From an uncultured Rhodospirillales bacterium (GTDB lineage: Bacteria; Pseudomonadota; Alphaproteobacteria; Azospirillales; Azospirillaceae), in assembly GCA_903856295.1 (NCBI GenBank), contig CAIOBP010000207.1:1-44522 (forward strand): a stretch of 44,522 nucleotides of DNA, read 5' to 3'. The position numbers were made by a program, and so were the translations under genes. Below are positions 9,193 through 44,522 of the stretch, piece by piece; the stretch's first letter is position 1; each line of letters opens with the position of its first letter. The notes beneath the pieces were generated by a model that worked only from the letters and a program-made list of their open reading frames with translations, did no database searches and was not told where the DNA came from.

Positions 9193-9516
9193 ATGCATTC
9201 GTTGTTTCTCCTGATCGACACCATCATCGGACTCTACATCTGGCTGCTGATCGGATCGGCGGTGCTGAGCTGGCTGGTGGTGTTCAACGTCGTCAACACC
9301 CGCAACCGCGGGGTCATCGCCATCGGCGACTTCCTCTACCGGGTCACCGAACCGGCCCTGCGGCCGATCCGGCGATTGATGCCCCATATGGGCGGCATCG
9401 ACATCTCGCCGGTGATTCTGATTCTGCTGCTGATCTTCGCGCAGAACCTGATCAGGGAGTACGGCTTCGCTTCGTCCCACGGCTTCGGGGCGCTGGCCGG
9501 GTTCCCGGTCGCTTGA
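9193..9516 (+). CDS. YggT family membrane protein
   Basis: A 107-residue inner-membrane protein with two hydrophobic segments (about 3-28 and 70-90). They flank a basic loop with the family pattern [13 protein letters not shown]. YggT proteins are linked to membrane and osmotic functions and their biochemical role is not settled. First gene of an operon: its TGA overlaps the TTG start of the DUF167 gene, which in turn overlaps folD. The yggT-DUF167 pairing is common in proteobacteria. Confidence 0.92.
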
Positions 9517-9845
9517 ACCTTTCACCGTTCGCGCGGGTTGCCGATGGCGTGCGGGTAACGCTGCGGGCGACACCGGGAGGATCGAGAAACGCCGTCACCG
9601 GGTTCGCCGACACCGCGAGTGGCGGCAAGGCGCTGAAGGTTTCGGTGACCGTGGTCGCCGAAGCCGGCAAGGCCAACGAGGCGGTGATCAAACTACTGGC
9701 CAAGTTGTGGCGGCTGCCGAAGTCGAGTTTTACCCTGGTCGCGGGAACCAGCGACCGCAACAAGATCATCCATCTCTCCGGAGACCCGGAGGCGCTGATG
9801 GCCATGCTTACCGGCCATCACCCCGTGGAGGACCGAAAACCATGA
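9513..9845 (+). CDS. DUF167 (YggU) family protein
   Basis: A 110-residue small alpha/beta protein of the YggU/DUF167 family, recognised by the order: [44 protein letters not shown], and [21 protein letters not shown]. Function is unknown in the family. The start is a TTG at 9513 that overlaps the yggT stop (TTGA) and has no ribosome-binding site of its own, so translational coupling is likely. The stop overlaps the folD start (ATGA at 9842-9845). Confidence 0.9.
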
Positions 9846-10747
9846 GCGCACGCATCATCGATGGCAAGGGCTTCGCCGCCGGACTCCGCCAGCGGGTCGC
9901 GGGCTATGCCGCCGACCTCAAGGCCAGAACCGGCACCGTCCCCGGTCTCGCGGTGATCCTGGTCGGCGACGATCCGGCCAGCGCCGTCTACGTCCGCAAC
10001 AAGGAAAAGGCGCTGGAGTCGGCGGGGCTGCACTCCTTCGATCACCGCCTGCCCCACGACACCGCCCAGGCCGATCTGCTCAGGCTGATCGACTCCTGCA
10101 ACCGCGATCCGGCGGTGCACGGCATTCTGGTGCAATTGCCGCTGCCCAAACACATCGACACCCCAACCGTGCTTGCCGCCATCGCCCCCGAGAAGGACGC
10201 CGACGGCTTCCACGTCACCAATGCCGGCCTGCTGGCCACCGGCCGCCCCGGAGTCGTGCCCTGCACTCCCCTCGGCTGCCTGATGCTGCTGCGCGACGTG
10301 CTGGGCCGCAACCTCGCCGGCAAACGGGCCCTGGTCATCGGCCGCTCGACCATCGTCGGCCGACCGATGGCGCAGTTGCTGCTCGGTGCCGACTGCACCG
10401 TCACCATGGCCCACTCGCGCACCCGCGACCTGGATATCGAATGCAGCCATGCCGATATTCTGATCGCCGCCGTCGGCCGCCCCGAAATGGTGCGCGGCGA
10501 CTGGATCAAGCGCGGCGCCACGGTGATCGATGTCGGCATGAACCGCATTCCGCCCGACTGCGGCTCGGCGGGCGGCGGCCGGTTGGTCGGCGACGTTCAC
10601 TATGCCGAAGCCGCCGAGGTGGCGGGCGCGATCACTCCGGTTCCGGGCGGAGTCGGGCCGATGACCATCGCCTGCCTGCTGGTCAACACCCTGGCCGCCG
10701 CCTGCCGTCAGGCCGGACAGCCGGTGCCCGAGGAAGCCCTGCCGTAA
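9842..10747 (+). CDS. folD: Methylenetetrahydrofolate dehydrogenase / cyclohydrolase
   Basis: FolD interconverts 5,10-methylene-, methenyl- and 10-formyl-tetrahydrofolate in the cytoplasm, supplying one-carbon units for purines and formyl-Met-tRNA. The 301-residue protein carries the family signatures: [17 protein letters not shown] with the catalytic Lys, [17 protein letters not shown], the NADP-binding [13 protein letters not shown], and the C-terminal [15 protein letters not shown] lies about 10 bases before the ATG, which overlaps the stop of the DUF167 gene by 4 bases. It is the last gene of the yggT operon. Confidence 0.98.
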
Positions 10748-10755
10748 CGCGCCGC

Positions 10756-11170
10756 TCAGCCCCCGGCGGGCGTCTTCTCCGACTGATACAGCCCGAGCGG
10801 GTCATGGCCGTGACCGTGGTCGGTCATGTGCATGGCCAGCATCGACTCCAGCCCCTTCTGAAGGGCGTCCAGCCCCTTCTGAAGGGTATCCGGCCCCTTC
10901 TGAAGCGCATCCTGACCTTTGCGCAGGTCGGCGACGTCCCTCTGAAGCGAGTCTTGCCCTCTCTGAAGCGCATCCTGACCGTTACGCAGGCCGGCGACGT
11001 CCTTCTGAAGGGCGTCCTGACCCCTCCTGAAAACGATCCTGAACCTTCTGGAAGGTCTCCTGCCCCTTCTGGAGGACGGAGATATCCTTCCTCATCGCCA
11101 CCTGCTCCTCGGCGATCACCTTCACCGTGGAAAGAATTTCACGCAGCAACTCGTCCGACCGGCCATCCAT
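10756..11170 (-). pseudogene. Heptad-repeat coiled-coil protein, frame broken by one base
   Basis: From ATG at 11170, with GGAG 11 bases upstream, the frame reads MDGRSDELLREILSTVKVI and continues as coiled coil. It then meets GAGGGGTCAG, where one surplus G (run at 11021-11024) shifts it to an early TAA. Ignoring that base restores a 137-residue protein ending at TGA 10756-10758. The restored part repeats a seven-residue unit, LQKGQDA with variants, interrupted by LQKDVAGLRN and LQRDVADLRK. It ends in a His-rich tail (HMTDHGHGHDPLG). An assembly error, a true mutation, or a +1 ribosomal shift would all fit. Function unknown. Confidence 0.7.
10850..11065 (-). repeat. Degenerate 21-bp tandem repeat encoding heptads
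   Basis: On the minus strand the unit CTTCAGAAGGGGCTGGACGC and close variants recur about every 21 bases. Each encodes LQKG-x-D-(A/S/T). At least seven copies are seen, some spaced by a longer unit with GGACGTCGCC-GACCTGCG. Repeats of this kind slip easily, and the one-base frame break of the host gene sits at their 5' edge. Confidence 0.75.
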
Positions 11171-11248
11171 GGGGAGATCTCCGACAACTCCAGGGCTTGA
11201 TGATACTCCGTCCCCGGCGATTCCGCCAGTCCGCCGCCGCTGCCTGTC

Positions 11249-14111: not shown

Positions 14112-14247
14112 AGTGCCCCGTCCGACATGTTCGGCCGGTCGCCCATGGCGTCCCGGCGGAAGGTGCTTATTAATTAATCGATCTGCCTAATTTTGTCCAC
14201 CCAAGACCGGATTCACGTCACAATTCGCCGTATTCGGCTCGCACCGA

Positions 14248-14508
14248 GTGTCAACCCCCATGGCCCCGACCCACCTCGACGCCAAAGGCCTGCTGTGTCC
14301 GCTGCCGGTGTTGCGCGCACGCAAGGCATTGAAATCTCTGGAAGTTGGCGACATCCTGATTGTCGAGACCACCGATGCCGCCTCGCCTGCCGACTTTACC
14401 GCCTTCTGCACCGCCACCGGGGACCGCCTGCTGCGATCCGAGGCCGATGGCGGGACATACCGATTCGAAATCGAGAAGGCCGCCCCCGCGCAACGCCCGG
14501 AAACCTGA
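14248..14508 (+). CDS. TusA-family sulfur carrier protein
   Basis: An 82-86 residue protein of the TusA/SirA fold. The signature LDAKGLLCPLPVLRARKAL contains the CPxP motif whose cysteine carries a persulfide in sulfur transfer. TusA-family proteins serve tRNA 2-thiouridylation, sulfur oxidation or selenium metabolism, and the sequence alone does not decide among these. A GTG at 14248 and an ATG at 14260 are in frame, and the family start fits the ATG slightly better. It is divergent from the ArsR regulator. Confidence 0.92.
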   Translation: MSTPMAPTHLDAKGLLCPLPVLRARKALKSLEVGDILIVETTDAASPADFTAFCTATGDRLLRSEADGGTYRFEIEKAAPAQRPET

Positions 14509-14603
14509 CCCGCTCCCATCCGATTTCCCATGAACTTTTCCGCGCATTCTGGAAAGATGGGGCTCCGCGCAGGCGGAACCGTCAGTAACCGGCCGCGACT
14601 CCC

Positions 14604-15532
14604 ATGACCACCGCGCTTTACACCCATCCGGCCTGCCTCGAGCACGACACCGGCCTTGGCCATCCGGAATGCCCCGAGCGCCTGCGGGCCGTGCTCGACG
14701 TTCTGGAGACCGAGCCGTTCGCCCCGCTCGTGTGGCGAGTCGCGCCGCCGGCCGAAATCGGGCAGATCGCCCTGGTCCATCACCGGAGCTACATCGACCG
14801 CGTGTTCGCCACGGTGCCGAAGCACGGCCACGCCGGCCTCGACGCCGACACCATCGTCTCGCCCGGTTCCGGAGAGGCGGCCCTGCGCGCCGCCGGAGCC
14901 CTGTGCGCCGCCGTCGACGCCGTGATGAGCGGCGAAATCGGCAACGCCTTCTGCGCCGTGCGCCCGCCGGGTCACCATGCCGAATCCCGCGAGGCCATGG
15001 GCTTTTGCCTGTTCAACAATGTGGCGATCGGCGCCGCCCACGCCCGCGCCGTCCACGGCCTGAAACGGGTGGCGATCATCGATTTCGACGTCCATCACGG
15101 CAACGGCACTCAAGAGTTCTGTGAGCATGAATCCGGACTGTTCTACGCCTCGACCCATCAATGGCCGCTCTATCCCGGCACCGGCAACGTTCGCGAGCGC
15201 GGCGATTTCAACAACATCGTCAACGCGCCGCTCCGGCCGATGTCCGGTTCCCCGGAGTTCCGCCACACCTGACCAAGAGCGTGCTGCCGGCCATGGAAGA
15301 GTTCGAGCCCGAATTGATCTTGATTTCCGCCGGCTTCGACGGCCATTCCCACGACCCGCTGGCCGCCCTGCATCTGGTCGAGGATGATTTCATCTGGGCC
15401 ACCCGCAAGCTTGGCGACCTTGCCCGCCGTCACTGCCGCGGCCGCATCGTCTCGACGCTTGAAGGCGGCTACAATCTGACCGCCCTGGCCAGCAGCTGCG
15501 CCGCTCACGTCCGTGAACTGATGGCCCTTTGA
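14604..15532 (+). pseudogene. Histone deacetylase family protein, frameshifted
   Basis: A class II-type deacetylase (HDAC/AcuC/acetylpolyamine amidohydrolase fold) in two frames. The first frame (14604-15272) carries HPECPERLRAVL, RPPGHHAE, GFCLFNNVA and the zinc-site segment DFDVHHGNGTQ. It then ends SGSPEFRHT-stop. The correct continuation, LTKSVLPAMEEFEPELILIS, then GFDGH and EGGYN, lies one frame over and ends at 15532. One base appears to be missing near 15264-15268 (ttccgccacacctg, where another c would give Phe-Arg-His-His-Leu). Restored length is about 309 residues, normal for the family. Sequencing error or recent mutation cannot be told apart here. Confidence 0.88.
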
Positions 15533-39674: not shown

Positions 39675-41018
39675 TCAGCGCTTACCGGCCAACAGGTGCT
39701 CCAGCCAATGGATGTCGTAGTCGCCGTTGATGAAATCACGCTGAACGATCAGGCGATTGTGAAGCTGGATGGTGGTTTCGACGCCGCCGATCACAAACTC
39801 TTCCAAAGCCCGGCGCAACCGCATCAGGCACTCGTTGCGCGAGGAACCATGAACCACCAGCTTGGCGATCAGGCTGTCATAGTGGGACGGCACCCGATAG
39901 CCATCGTAAAGCGCGCTGTCGACCCGCACGCCCAAGCCGCCGGGGGCGTGATAGCCCTCGATTCGCCCCGGTGACGGCGCGAAGGTCTCGGGATGCTCGG
40001 CGTTGATCCGGCACTCGATGGAATGGCCCTGGATGCGCACATCCTCCTGGCCGTAGCCGAGGGGAGCGCCGGTGGCCACCCGGATCTGTTCGCGCACCAG
40101 ATCGATGCCGGTGATCATCTCGGAAATGGTGTGCTCGACCTGAAGCCGGGTGTTCATCTCGATGAAGTAGAACTGCCCGTCCTCGAAGAGGAACTCCATG
40201 GTGCCGACGCCGCGATAACCGAACTGCGAGGCGGTGCGGGCGGCCAGGGTGCCGATGAATTCGCGCTGAAGCGCATTCAGCCCGGGCGACGGCGCTTCCT
40301 CGATCACCTTCTGGTGACGGCGCTGCACCGAGCAGTCGCGCTCGCCAAAATGGACGCAGGTGCCGTGGCTGTCGGCCAGCAACTGGATTTCGATGTGGCG
40401 CGGCTTGACCAGATACCGCTCCATATACACTTCATCGTTGCCGAAAGCGGCGCGCGACTCACTTTTTGCCATCTGGAAGGCTTCGCGCAGCGACTCGGGA
40501 TTGCGCGCCACCTTCATGCCGCGCCCGCCGCCGCCGGCCGCCGCCTTGATCAGAACCGGATAGCCGATCTGGCGCGCCACCTCCTCGGCCTCTTCGAAGG
40601 TCGCAACCGGACCATCGGAGCCGGGCACCACGGGCAGCCCCAAGTCCATCACGGTCTTCTTGGCGGTGACCTTGTCGCCCATGATCCGGATGTGCTCGGG
40701 CGTCGGACCGATGAAGGCGAAGCCGTGCTCCTCGACCATCTGGGCGAACTGGGCGTTCTCCGACAGAAAGCCGATGCCGGGATGAATGGCGTCGGCGCCG
40801 GTGATGGTCGCCGCCGACAGGATCGCCGGAATGTTGAGATAGCTGTCCTTGGCCGCGGGCGGACCAATGCACACGCTCTCATCCGCGAGACGCACATGCA
40901 TGGCGTCGGCGTCAGCGGTGGAATGCACCGCGACGGTATGGATGCCCATCTCGCGGCACGCGCGATGAATGCGCAACGCGATCTCGCCGCGATTGGCGAT
41001 CAATACCTTTTCGAACAT
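39675..41018 (-). CDS. accC: Biotin carboxylase subunit of acetyl-CoA carboxylase
   Basis: AccC carboxylates biotin on AccB with ATP and bicarbonate. The 447-residue ATP-grasp enzyme has MFEKVLIANRGEIALRI at the N-terminus, the glycine-rich ATP loop AAAGGGGRGMKV, the ERDCSVQRRHQKVIEEAP segment, EMNTRLQVEHTISE, and DSLIAKLVVHG. I chose the ATG at 41018, which matches the family start; one at 41030 is also in frame, and neither has a clear ribosome-binding site. It is 24 bases after accB, in the same operon. Confidence 0.97.
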   Translation of the reverse strand: MFEKVLIANRGEIALRIHRACREMGIHTVAVHSTADADAMHVRLADESVCIGPPAAKDSYLNIPAILSAATITGADAIHPGIGFLSENAQFAQMVEEHGFAFIGPTPEHIRIMGDKVTAKKTVMDLGLPVVPGSDGPVATFEEAEEVARQIGYPVLIKAAAGGGGRGMKVARNPESLREAFQMAKSESRAAFGNDEVYMERYLVKPRHIEIQLLADSHGTCVHFGERDCSVQRRHQKVIEEAPSPGLNALQREFIGTLAARTASQFGYRGVGTMEFLFEDGQFYFIEMNTRLQVEHTISEMITGIDLVREQIRVATGAPLGYGQEDVRIQGHSIECRINAEHPETFAPSPGRIEGYHAPGGLGVRVDSALYDGYRVPSHYDSLIAKLVVHGSSRNECLMRLRRALEEFVIGGVETTIQLHNRLIVQRDFINGDYDIHWLEHLLAGKR

Positions 41019-41042
41019 GCCACCGGCCATCTGAAAGACCGC

Positions 41043-41492
41043 CTATTCGATGATCAGGAGAACTTCGCCGAACTCAACCGGCTGAGCGTCGGTCACCAGG
41101 ACCTGGGTCACGGTGCCGCTTCTCGGGGCCTTGATCGGGTTCATCACCTTCATGGCCTCGATAATCATCACCGTCTGCCCGGCCTTGACCGTCTCGCCGA
41201 CCCGGGCGTAGGACGGAGCCCCCGGCTCCGGCGCGACATAGGCGGTGCCGACCATGGGCGAGGTCACGGCGCCCGGAGGCACCGCGGCCGCTCCCGAACC
41301 GGGCCGCGCGGCATTGGGGGGCGGAGCGGCCACCGCGACCGGCGCCGCGACGCTGACCGCCGCGACGGCGGTCTGGCGGGTGACGCGGATCCGCCGCTCA
41401 CCCTCCGCAAACTCCACTTCGGTCAACCCGGTTTCACGCAACAGATCCGCAAGCTTGCGGATCAGATCGCCGTCGATGTCGAAACTCGCCAT
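41043..41492 (-). CDS. accB: Biotin carboxyl carrier protein
   Basis: A 149-residue carrier that shuttles the carboxyl group between AccC and the AccA-AccD transferase. The N-terminal region, a Pro/Ala-rich linker (about 45-75) and the C-terminal biotinyl domain are all present. Lys115 in EAMKVMN is biotinylated. It lies between aroQ and accC in the usual order. The linker is strongly alanine- and proline-rich. Confidence 0.97.
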   Translation of the reverse strand: MASFDIDGDLIRKLADLLRETGLTEVEFAEGERRIRVTRQTAVAAVSVAAPVAVAAPPPNAARPGSGAAAVPPGAVTSPMVGTAYVAPEPGAPSYARVGETVKAGQTVMIIEAMKVMNPIKAPRSGTVTQVLVTDAQPVEFGEVLLIIE

Positions 41493-42244: not shown

Positions 42245-44522
42245 ATGCGACACTCCGGCCCTCCCGAGACAGCGAAACCACCGGCGGCAGGCGACGATGG
42301 CCGTCACGAACCGGCGCTCGCGGCCGGCGACGTCGGCGTCTGGGACTGGGACCTCGGCACCGACAGCATTTATTTCTCGCCGACCTGGTTCCGGATACTC
42401 GGCTACGAGCCGGGCGAACTGCCGAGCACCGCCACCAGCTGGACCGACAACATCCACCCCGACGACCTGATGGAGGCCTACCGGCGCATTCAGGAGCATC
42501 TGGAGGGAAAAACCGAGCGCTACGTTCATCCGCACCGGCTGCGCCACAAGCGTGGCCATCACCTGTGGGTCGAGGCGCGGGGCAGAGCGGTGCGGGATGG
42601 CGCGGGCAAGGCCAGCCGTCTGGTCGGCACCCTCACCGGCATCGAGCAGGTCAAGCGCCTCGAGGCCGAACTGCGCGGCGCGCGGGCCGAGGCCGAAGCC
42701 GCCATCCGCGCCAAAGCCGAGTTTCTGGCCGCGGTCAGTCACGAAATCCGCACGCCGATGAACGGCATCATCGGCATCACCCAGCTGCTGCTCGACTCCG
42801 GGCTGGAGAAAAACCAGCACCATTACGCCGAAGCGGTCATGGGCTCGGCCAACGAGCTGATGACGATCATCAACGACATCCTCGACATTTCGAAGCTCGA
42901 GGCCGGACGGCTGGAGATCGAGGCGACACCGCTGGCGCTGGCGGACCTGGTGTCGGACGTGGTCGAGCAACTGGCGCCGAGGGCGCGGGAAAAGGCCCTC
43001 GAGATCAGCGAGTTCGTCGCCCCCGAGCTTGATCAGCCGCTGCTCGGCGATCCCAGGCGGTTGCGCCAGATTCTGCTTAATCTCACCGCCAACGCCGTCA
43101 AATTCACCGAGGCCGGGGAAATCGCCATCGAGGCGCTGGCCGGCGAGCGGAGCGCTTCCGGCCTCACCCTGATCCTCGAGGTCAGCGACACCGGCATCGG
43201 CATCCCGCCTGACGCCAGCGAAAGCCTGTTTGCCAGATTCGTCCAGGGCGACGGCTCGACGGCCCGGCGCTATGGCGGCACCGGACTGGGACTTGCCATC
43301 TCCAGGGAACTGGCCGAACTGATGGGCGGGACCATCTCGGTCGACAGCGCCCCCGGCTCCGGCAGCCGCTTCACCGTCACCCTGCCGATGACGTTCGCCG
43401 GCACGCCCGAGCCCCACCGCGCGGCGGCGCCGGCCCTGCTCGCCGGCAGGCGGGCGCTGCTGGTCGACGCCCGCCCCCTGCGCCGCCGGGTGCTATCGCG
43501 GCATCTGGAAGCCTTTGGCATCACCTGCGAGGTCACCGAGGATGGCGACCGAGCCCTCGCCTCGCTCCGCGCCGAAAACGCCGGCTCCTTCGAACTGGTG
43601 GTGCTTGGGGAAACGATGGCCGGCCGCCGCGATCCCTGGGACATCCTGGCCCCCGCGCTGGCCGCCCGGCCGGATGTTCCGGTGTTGCGCCTGGTTTCGC
43701 CGGCCGACGGACGCTCCGCCGGCCCCTGCGAAAGCTGCGCCCACCCCTGCCACGCGGCCTCCCTGACGCTGCCGGTCCGCAGACAGGGGCTGATCGCCTG
43801 CCTGGCCAAGCTGTTCGAAGCGGCGGCCCGCCAGCCGAGGCCGGTGAACACGCCGCCCGACCTCTGCTCCGACGCCCGCGCGGCGCTCGCGCAGGCCGGC
43901 GCGCCCCCCCGGACGGAGCCCCCGGCGGCCGGGGACGACACCCCACCGCCGGCAACCGGCCCGCGCCTGCTGCTCGCCGAGGACAACCGGACCAACCAGC
44001 TGTTCGCGGTCACCCTGCTCAACCATGCCGGCTACCGGGTCGATGTCGCCGAGGATGGCGTCCAGGCCGCCGCCGCCGCCGGCCGGCAGGACTACGCCGC
44101 CGTGCTGATGGATGTGCAGATGCCGACCATGGACGGCATCGAGGCGACCCGGCGCATCCGGGCGCTGCCGGGACCGCGCGGCGGCGTGCCGATCATCGCC
44201 ATGACCGCTCACGCCATGCCCCAGGCCCGGGCCAGCTGTCTGGCCGCCGGCATGAACGATTATCTGGCCAAACCAGTGAGCCACGCCGACCTGCTGGCGA
44301 TGGTCGCGCACTGGACCGCGGCGCCTCCCGAGGCCGCGCCCCCCGAGACCGCACCCGGCGGCGCATCGGTTTTGGCCGCGCCCGGCGGCGCATCGGTTCC
44401 GGCCGCCCCCGGCGGCGCATCGATTCCGGCCGCCCCCGGCGGCGCATCGATTCCGGCCGCCCCCGGCGGCGCATCGATTCCGGCCGCCCCCGGCGGCGCA
44501 TCGATTCCGGCCGCCCCCGGCG
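42245..44522 (+). CDS. Hybrid sensor histidine kinase (partial)
   Basis: The gene runs off the right edge; 759 codons are visible. It has no transmembrane segment. Domains in order: a PAS domain with PAC (about 25-140, [20 protein letters not shown]), a short coiled coil, HisKA with His166 ([16 protein letters not shown]), and HATPase with Asn283 and DTGIGIP at 315. A degenerate receiver (about 400-515) lacks the phosphorylatable Asp and holds Cys495, Cys498 and Cys502-His503. A complete receiver follows (EDN at 579-581, Asp623, Lys676), then a tandem repeat [10 protein letters not shown] histidine phosphotransfer domain may follow outside. GAGG lies 5 bases before the ATG. Confidence 0.93.
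44357..44522 (+). repeat. 27-bp tandem repeat at the kinase C-terminus
   Basis: Six full units (44357-44383, -44410, -44437, -44464, -44491 and -44518) plus the start of a seventh. Units 1 and 2 encode GGASVLAAP and GGASVPAAP, and the rest encode GGASIPAAP and are identical in DNA. Identity of the later units indicates recent expansion. The number of copies beyond the window edge is unknown, and an assembler could collapse the array. Confidence 0.92.

Follow-up and report, generated by a model that had tools for sequence, protein, structure and literature searches.

A lineage-specific coiled-coil gene beside folD in an uncultured Rhodospirillales bacterium, very probably broken by an ordinary single-base indel

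Results

The stretch of DNA analysed here, called the window throughout, comprises 44,522 nucleotides of one contig from an uncultured Rhodospirillales bacterium, whose draft genome totals 4.02 Mb in 255 contigs. Between folD (9842-10747, plus strand) and a DnaJ-domain gene (12136-11249, minus strand; Pfam DnaJ, E 9.5e-20) lies a minus-strand coiled-coil gene that is split over two overlapping frames (Table 1). The ATG at 11170 opens a frame of 62 codons that ends at a stop at 10982, and codons 1 to 49-50 of this frame encode genuine protein sequence of the gene. In its assembled form, the gene would yield a truncated peptide of 62 residues. When one base of the G4 run (C4 on the plus strand) is skipped, so that GGGT is read as a single step at codon 50, translation extends to 137 residues and terminates with the TGA at 10756-10758, reproducing exactly the coordinates and the length given in an earlier sequence-only reading of this DNA. 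From the G run onward the downstream frame continues the heptad protein for 88 codons without a stop, and neither ATG, GTG nor TTG occurs in it from the preceding stop (11094) as far as 10842. A perfect palindrome, GGAGATCTCC, is found at 11173-11182 directly 5' of the start codon, where it overlaps the Shine-Dalgarno-like GGAG.

Table 1. Positions of the elements that make up the coiled-coil gene and its break.
Feature	Coordinates	Strand	Basis
Shine-Dalgarno-like GGAG, 8 bases 5' of the ATG	11179..11182	-	sequence
Upstream frame of the coiled-coil gene	10982..11170	-	ORF scan; codon-model preference down to 11022
G4 run with one surplus base, breaking the frame and the 21-base register	11021..11024	-	sequence, register shift, best switch point
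Downstream open frame, 111 codons plus stop	10756..11091	-	ORF scan
Best-kept 21-base tandem repeats, 3.1 copies, 88% match	10847..10912	-	Tandem Repeats Finder; periodicity
His-containing tail HMTDHGHGHD, predicted disordered	10801..10830	-	translation; low pLDDT

Judged by their sequence, the upstream and downstream frames look like parts of one gene, and the pattern exceeds what chance would give. DNA identity at a lag of 21 bases is 0.53, compared to 0.20-0.33 at the remaining lags from 15 to 26. When the upstream repeats are aligned with those downstream, each of the top seven offsets equals 1 modulo 21, and there is therefore one surplus base at the junction; the 21-base register runs unbroken across the G4 run only with one base omitted. 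A codon-based model, whose training set was long frames of the own genome, was scanned over 370 switch positions and places the best two-frame switch at 11022, 51 and 63 log units above either single frame; its frame preference also holds beyond the strict repeats, e.g. over 11026-11170. In the heptad frame, the six downstream repeat units differ 9, 17 and 37 times at first, second and third codon positions, respectively, counts that are sums over pairs and hence not independent. However, the codon model scores non-coding sequence 5.3 log units higher than the two-frame path, and a gene-finding HMM with frame switches labels 10748-11248 entirely non-coding. The codon usage of the gene is atypical. 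Nevertheless, what is broken here is probably a genuine coiled-coil gene.

An AlphaFold2 single-sequence model of the read-through predicts one helix from residue 3 to 116 (mean pLDDT 87). Block means of pLDDT around the junction are 97-98, and values are low after about residue 110, that is in the tail. This predicted helix and the lag-21 periodicity of the DNA give the product the long helix with seven-residue periodicity that defines a coiled-coil repeat protein. The histidine-rich end described in the sequence-only reading does contain histidines, although they amount to 4 in 9 residues. The same reading had placed the break beside slippage-prone repeats, which is overstated, since the repeats do exist but their best-kept copies lie more than 100 bases from the break.

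Searches for relatives returned the gene itself and repeats similar to its own. With the N-terminal 50 residues, the own genome is the sole match among 82 family genomes, and the read-through likewise finds its own genome only among 385 class genomes (E <= 1e-6), with three matches there, namely the two halves of the gene and a repeat paralog encoded on contig C74. Repeats similar to those of the downstream half are present in 10 of the 82 family genomes, the own included. Among the matches listed, 14 of 14 similar repeat proteins are without an internal stop, and those that were inspected have heptads in common, while their ends differ and, where mapped, their neighbours also. These GQ-x-x-L-Q-type coiled-coil proteins of the family (such as the paralog G000:C74 L013, and G050 L004) resemble the gene studied here in their heptads with leucine in register, with 34-49% identity over the repeats among the matches listed, but they have other ends, other neighbours (in the inspected ones) and open frames. 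The likeness may be a matter of repeat convergence. Plasmids and phages searched with the downstream half gave no match, and although 21 stretches of viral contigs fit the read-through pattern, none encodes a relative. In Pfam, the first 50 residues have no match and the downstream half has a single one, MukF_M, below the cut-off. Nine NCBIfam matches of the read-through are all under their cut-offs, PHROGs gave two weak matches only, and no match was found among PDB sequences. We read the weak matches in family databases as coiled-coil similarity.

The content of the junction between folD and dnaJ (10748-11248) varies among the congeners. Three of the four (G047, G048, G049) have a different gene in this interval, which from its sequence we take to be methyltransferase-like (FkbM-type). 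In the fourth, G050, folD is followed by another gene, presumably CorA-like, and folD and dnaJ lie on separate contigs, so that the junction is not whole. Because the congeners, as far as their contigs can be read, carry other genes beside folD, and the N-terminal part and the read-through match the own genome only, the coiled-coil gene is lineage-specific, with no ortholog showing the ancestral frame.

A second broken frame is present on the same contig about 4 kb away, where a histone-deacetylase-domain gene (14604-15532, plus strand; Pfam E 2e-61) is frame-broken near 15267. It stops after 222 codons and the rest resumes in another frame from about 15269. Its best matches are open in all four congeners, in frames of 330-397 codons, and G047, G048, G049 and G050 (L070) all supply proteins that span the break. 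The own genome also encodes a second, intact deacetylase homolog (G000:C226, 57% identity). The HMM with frame switches called no break in either the coiled-coil gene or the deacetylase gene and labelled the opposite strand across 14187-15266, in the deacetylase region. It was not useful as a break counter, and breaks were then counted in a comparison with congener proteins.

This comparison covered 538 kb of the own genome and yielded one accepted break per 91 conserved gene places, or 93 kb, with 26 of the 91 places lying within the window. It returned 6 rows at 4 places in the own genome, of which the deacetylase place (3 rows) was kept. Set aside were the L051 row, which has an over-extended query start, and the rows at 9268-9769 and 40969-41423, because their queries lie on the strand opposite to the mapped genes. 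The rate refers to the own genome, with 4 rows from G050 and 2 from G049 falling outside it; L049 and L120, inside the window, are excluded from the counts, and L075 belongs to a smaller initial comparison only. Two breaks within about 4.2 kb exceed the clustering expected from this rate, which hints mildly at a poor consensus in this region.

Discussion

Our preferred explanation is that a lineage-specific coiled-coil gene has been broken by an ordinary single-base indel, either an error or a recent mutation, and we regard this as very probable. The gene would encode one long helix of seven-residue repeats followed by a short histidine-containing tail, and a single-base indel at the G4 run would have broken its frame in the assembly. 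Such an indel could be a consensus or assembly error or a recent loss-of-function mutation, and the two are about equally likely. Thus, the assembly error proposed in the sequence-only reading stays in play, but it now shares the field with a genuine recent indel. Decay of the downstream sequence, which that reading had named as the sign of a dead gene, was looked for and is absent. Since the downstream half is undecayed, the break should be recent or not real, and we infer that the ancestor was in frame. The gene shows a one-base break in otherwise coding-like sequence and no independent downstream start, the pattern of an indel pseudogene or a sequencing error. PMC3711429 attributes singleton frame breaks, orphan genes apart, chiefly to indel mutation or to errors in sequencing, and allows that some unclustered cases may be orphans with a programmed frameshift. 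The coiled-coil gene is similar to these singletons in that a one-base break lies in a coding-like gene and a conserved cluster of split homologs is lacking. However, the same statement excepts orphans, and the coiled-coil gene is an orphan, so the indel call rests on less comparison. It also counts against an indel that one break per 93 kb is a low rate, which makes a break in a given gene of 415 bases unexpected a priori. Nothing indicates a device that exploits the break, and a switch or recoding has little behind it. The histone-deacetylase-like gene is a reminder that draft genomes show frame breaks even in conserved genes; on its own, therefore, a split orphan frame says little in favour of a switch or of recoding.

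One rival explanation holds that there is no gene at all and that the interval is a non-coding repeat stretch, open by chance in several frames. This is in line with the non-coding label given by the HMM, with a plus-strand frame of 324 codons that spans the interval too and with the ortholog searches, which found none. However, differences between the downstream units concentrate at the third positions of one minus-strand frame, the frame preference holds outside the strict repeats, a start codon with a Shine-Dalgarno-like sequence exists and similar repeat proteins are encoded elsewhere in the family, all of which argues for a coding sequence. We therefore consider a chance-open stretch to be very unlikely.

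In prfB and other genes with a programmed +1 frameshift, a Shine-Dalgarno-like sequence lies within the gene close to the shift, and the coiled-coil gene has one as well. Here, an AGGAGG overlaps the GGG and is followed by the uncommon TCA codon, and some ribosomes might skip one base to give a short and a long product. The combined sequence AGGAGGGG is found once on both strands of the window, namely at the break, TCA is used 2.7 times per 1000 codons and the downstream half is intact. Against this stands that the window, both strands counted, has 22 copies of AGGAGG alone and that the end of the short product is scrambled. In contrast to prfB-type genes, there is no stop codon and no known slippery heptamer at the shift, and no homologs were found in which a conserved site would show. 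A split-frame ortholog was not found with the N-terminal 50 residues in the 82 family genomes nor with the read-through in the 385 class genomes, and the similar repeat proteins among the matches listed are open throughout. According to PMC3711429, some programmed frameshifts carry Shine-Dalgarno-type stimulators, and a conserved site is required; because orphan programmed frameshifts are allowed there, the scheme does not strictly exclude the coiled-coil orphan. Of the ribosomal frameshift raised in the sequence-only reading, there remain local letters that are suggestive at most, with no other positive support. We judge such a shift to be highly improbable, and the specific version, in which the orphan gene shifts +1 at GGG-TCA via AGGAGG and makes coiled-coil products of 62 and 137 residues from one message, to be a shade less probable again. 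Were the +1 shift real, the recoding site would be both new and simple.

Phase variation, in which a change in length of the G run or of the 21-base repeats toggles the gene, had been suggested by the G run at the break and the tandem repeats nearby. The survey of poly-G phase-variable genes in PMC6321876 sets its cut-off at runs of at least seven G or C. The coiled-coil gene shares with those genes a G run inside the reading frame, but differs in having only four Gs, a tract below hypermutable length, and a repeat unit that is a multiple of three. Runs of exactly four G or C are ordinary, with 261 in the window, and the gene's four other GGGG runs and one GGGGG keep the frame. As 21 is a multiple of three, a change in repeat number would leave the frame intact. 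Thus, the phase variation proposed earlier finds no support and has only the slimmest of chances. Translational coupling of two genes was rejected because no ATG, GTG or TTG of the downstream frame lies near the first stop.

Elsewhere in the window lies a 27-base tandem array at 44349-44522 (6.4 copies, 96% match) that reaches the contig end, where the assembly stops.
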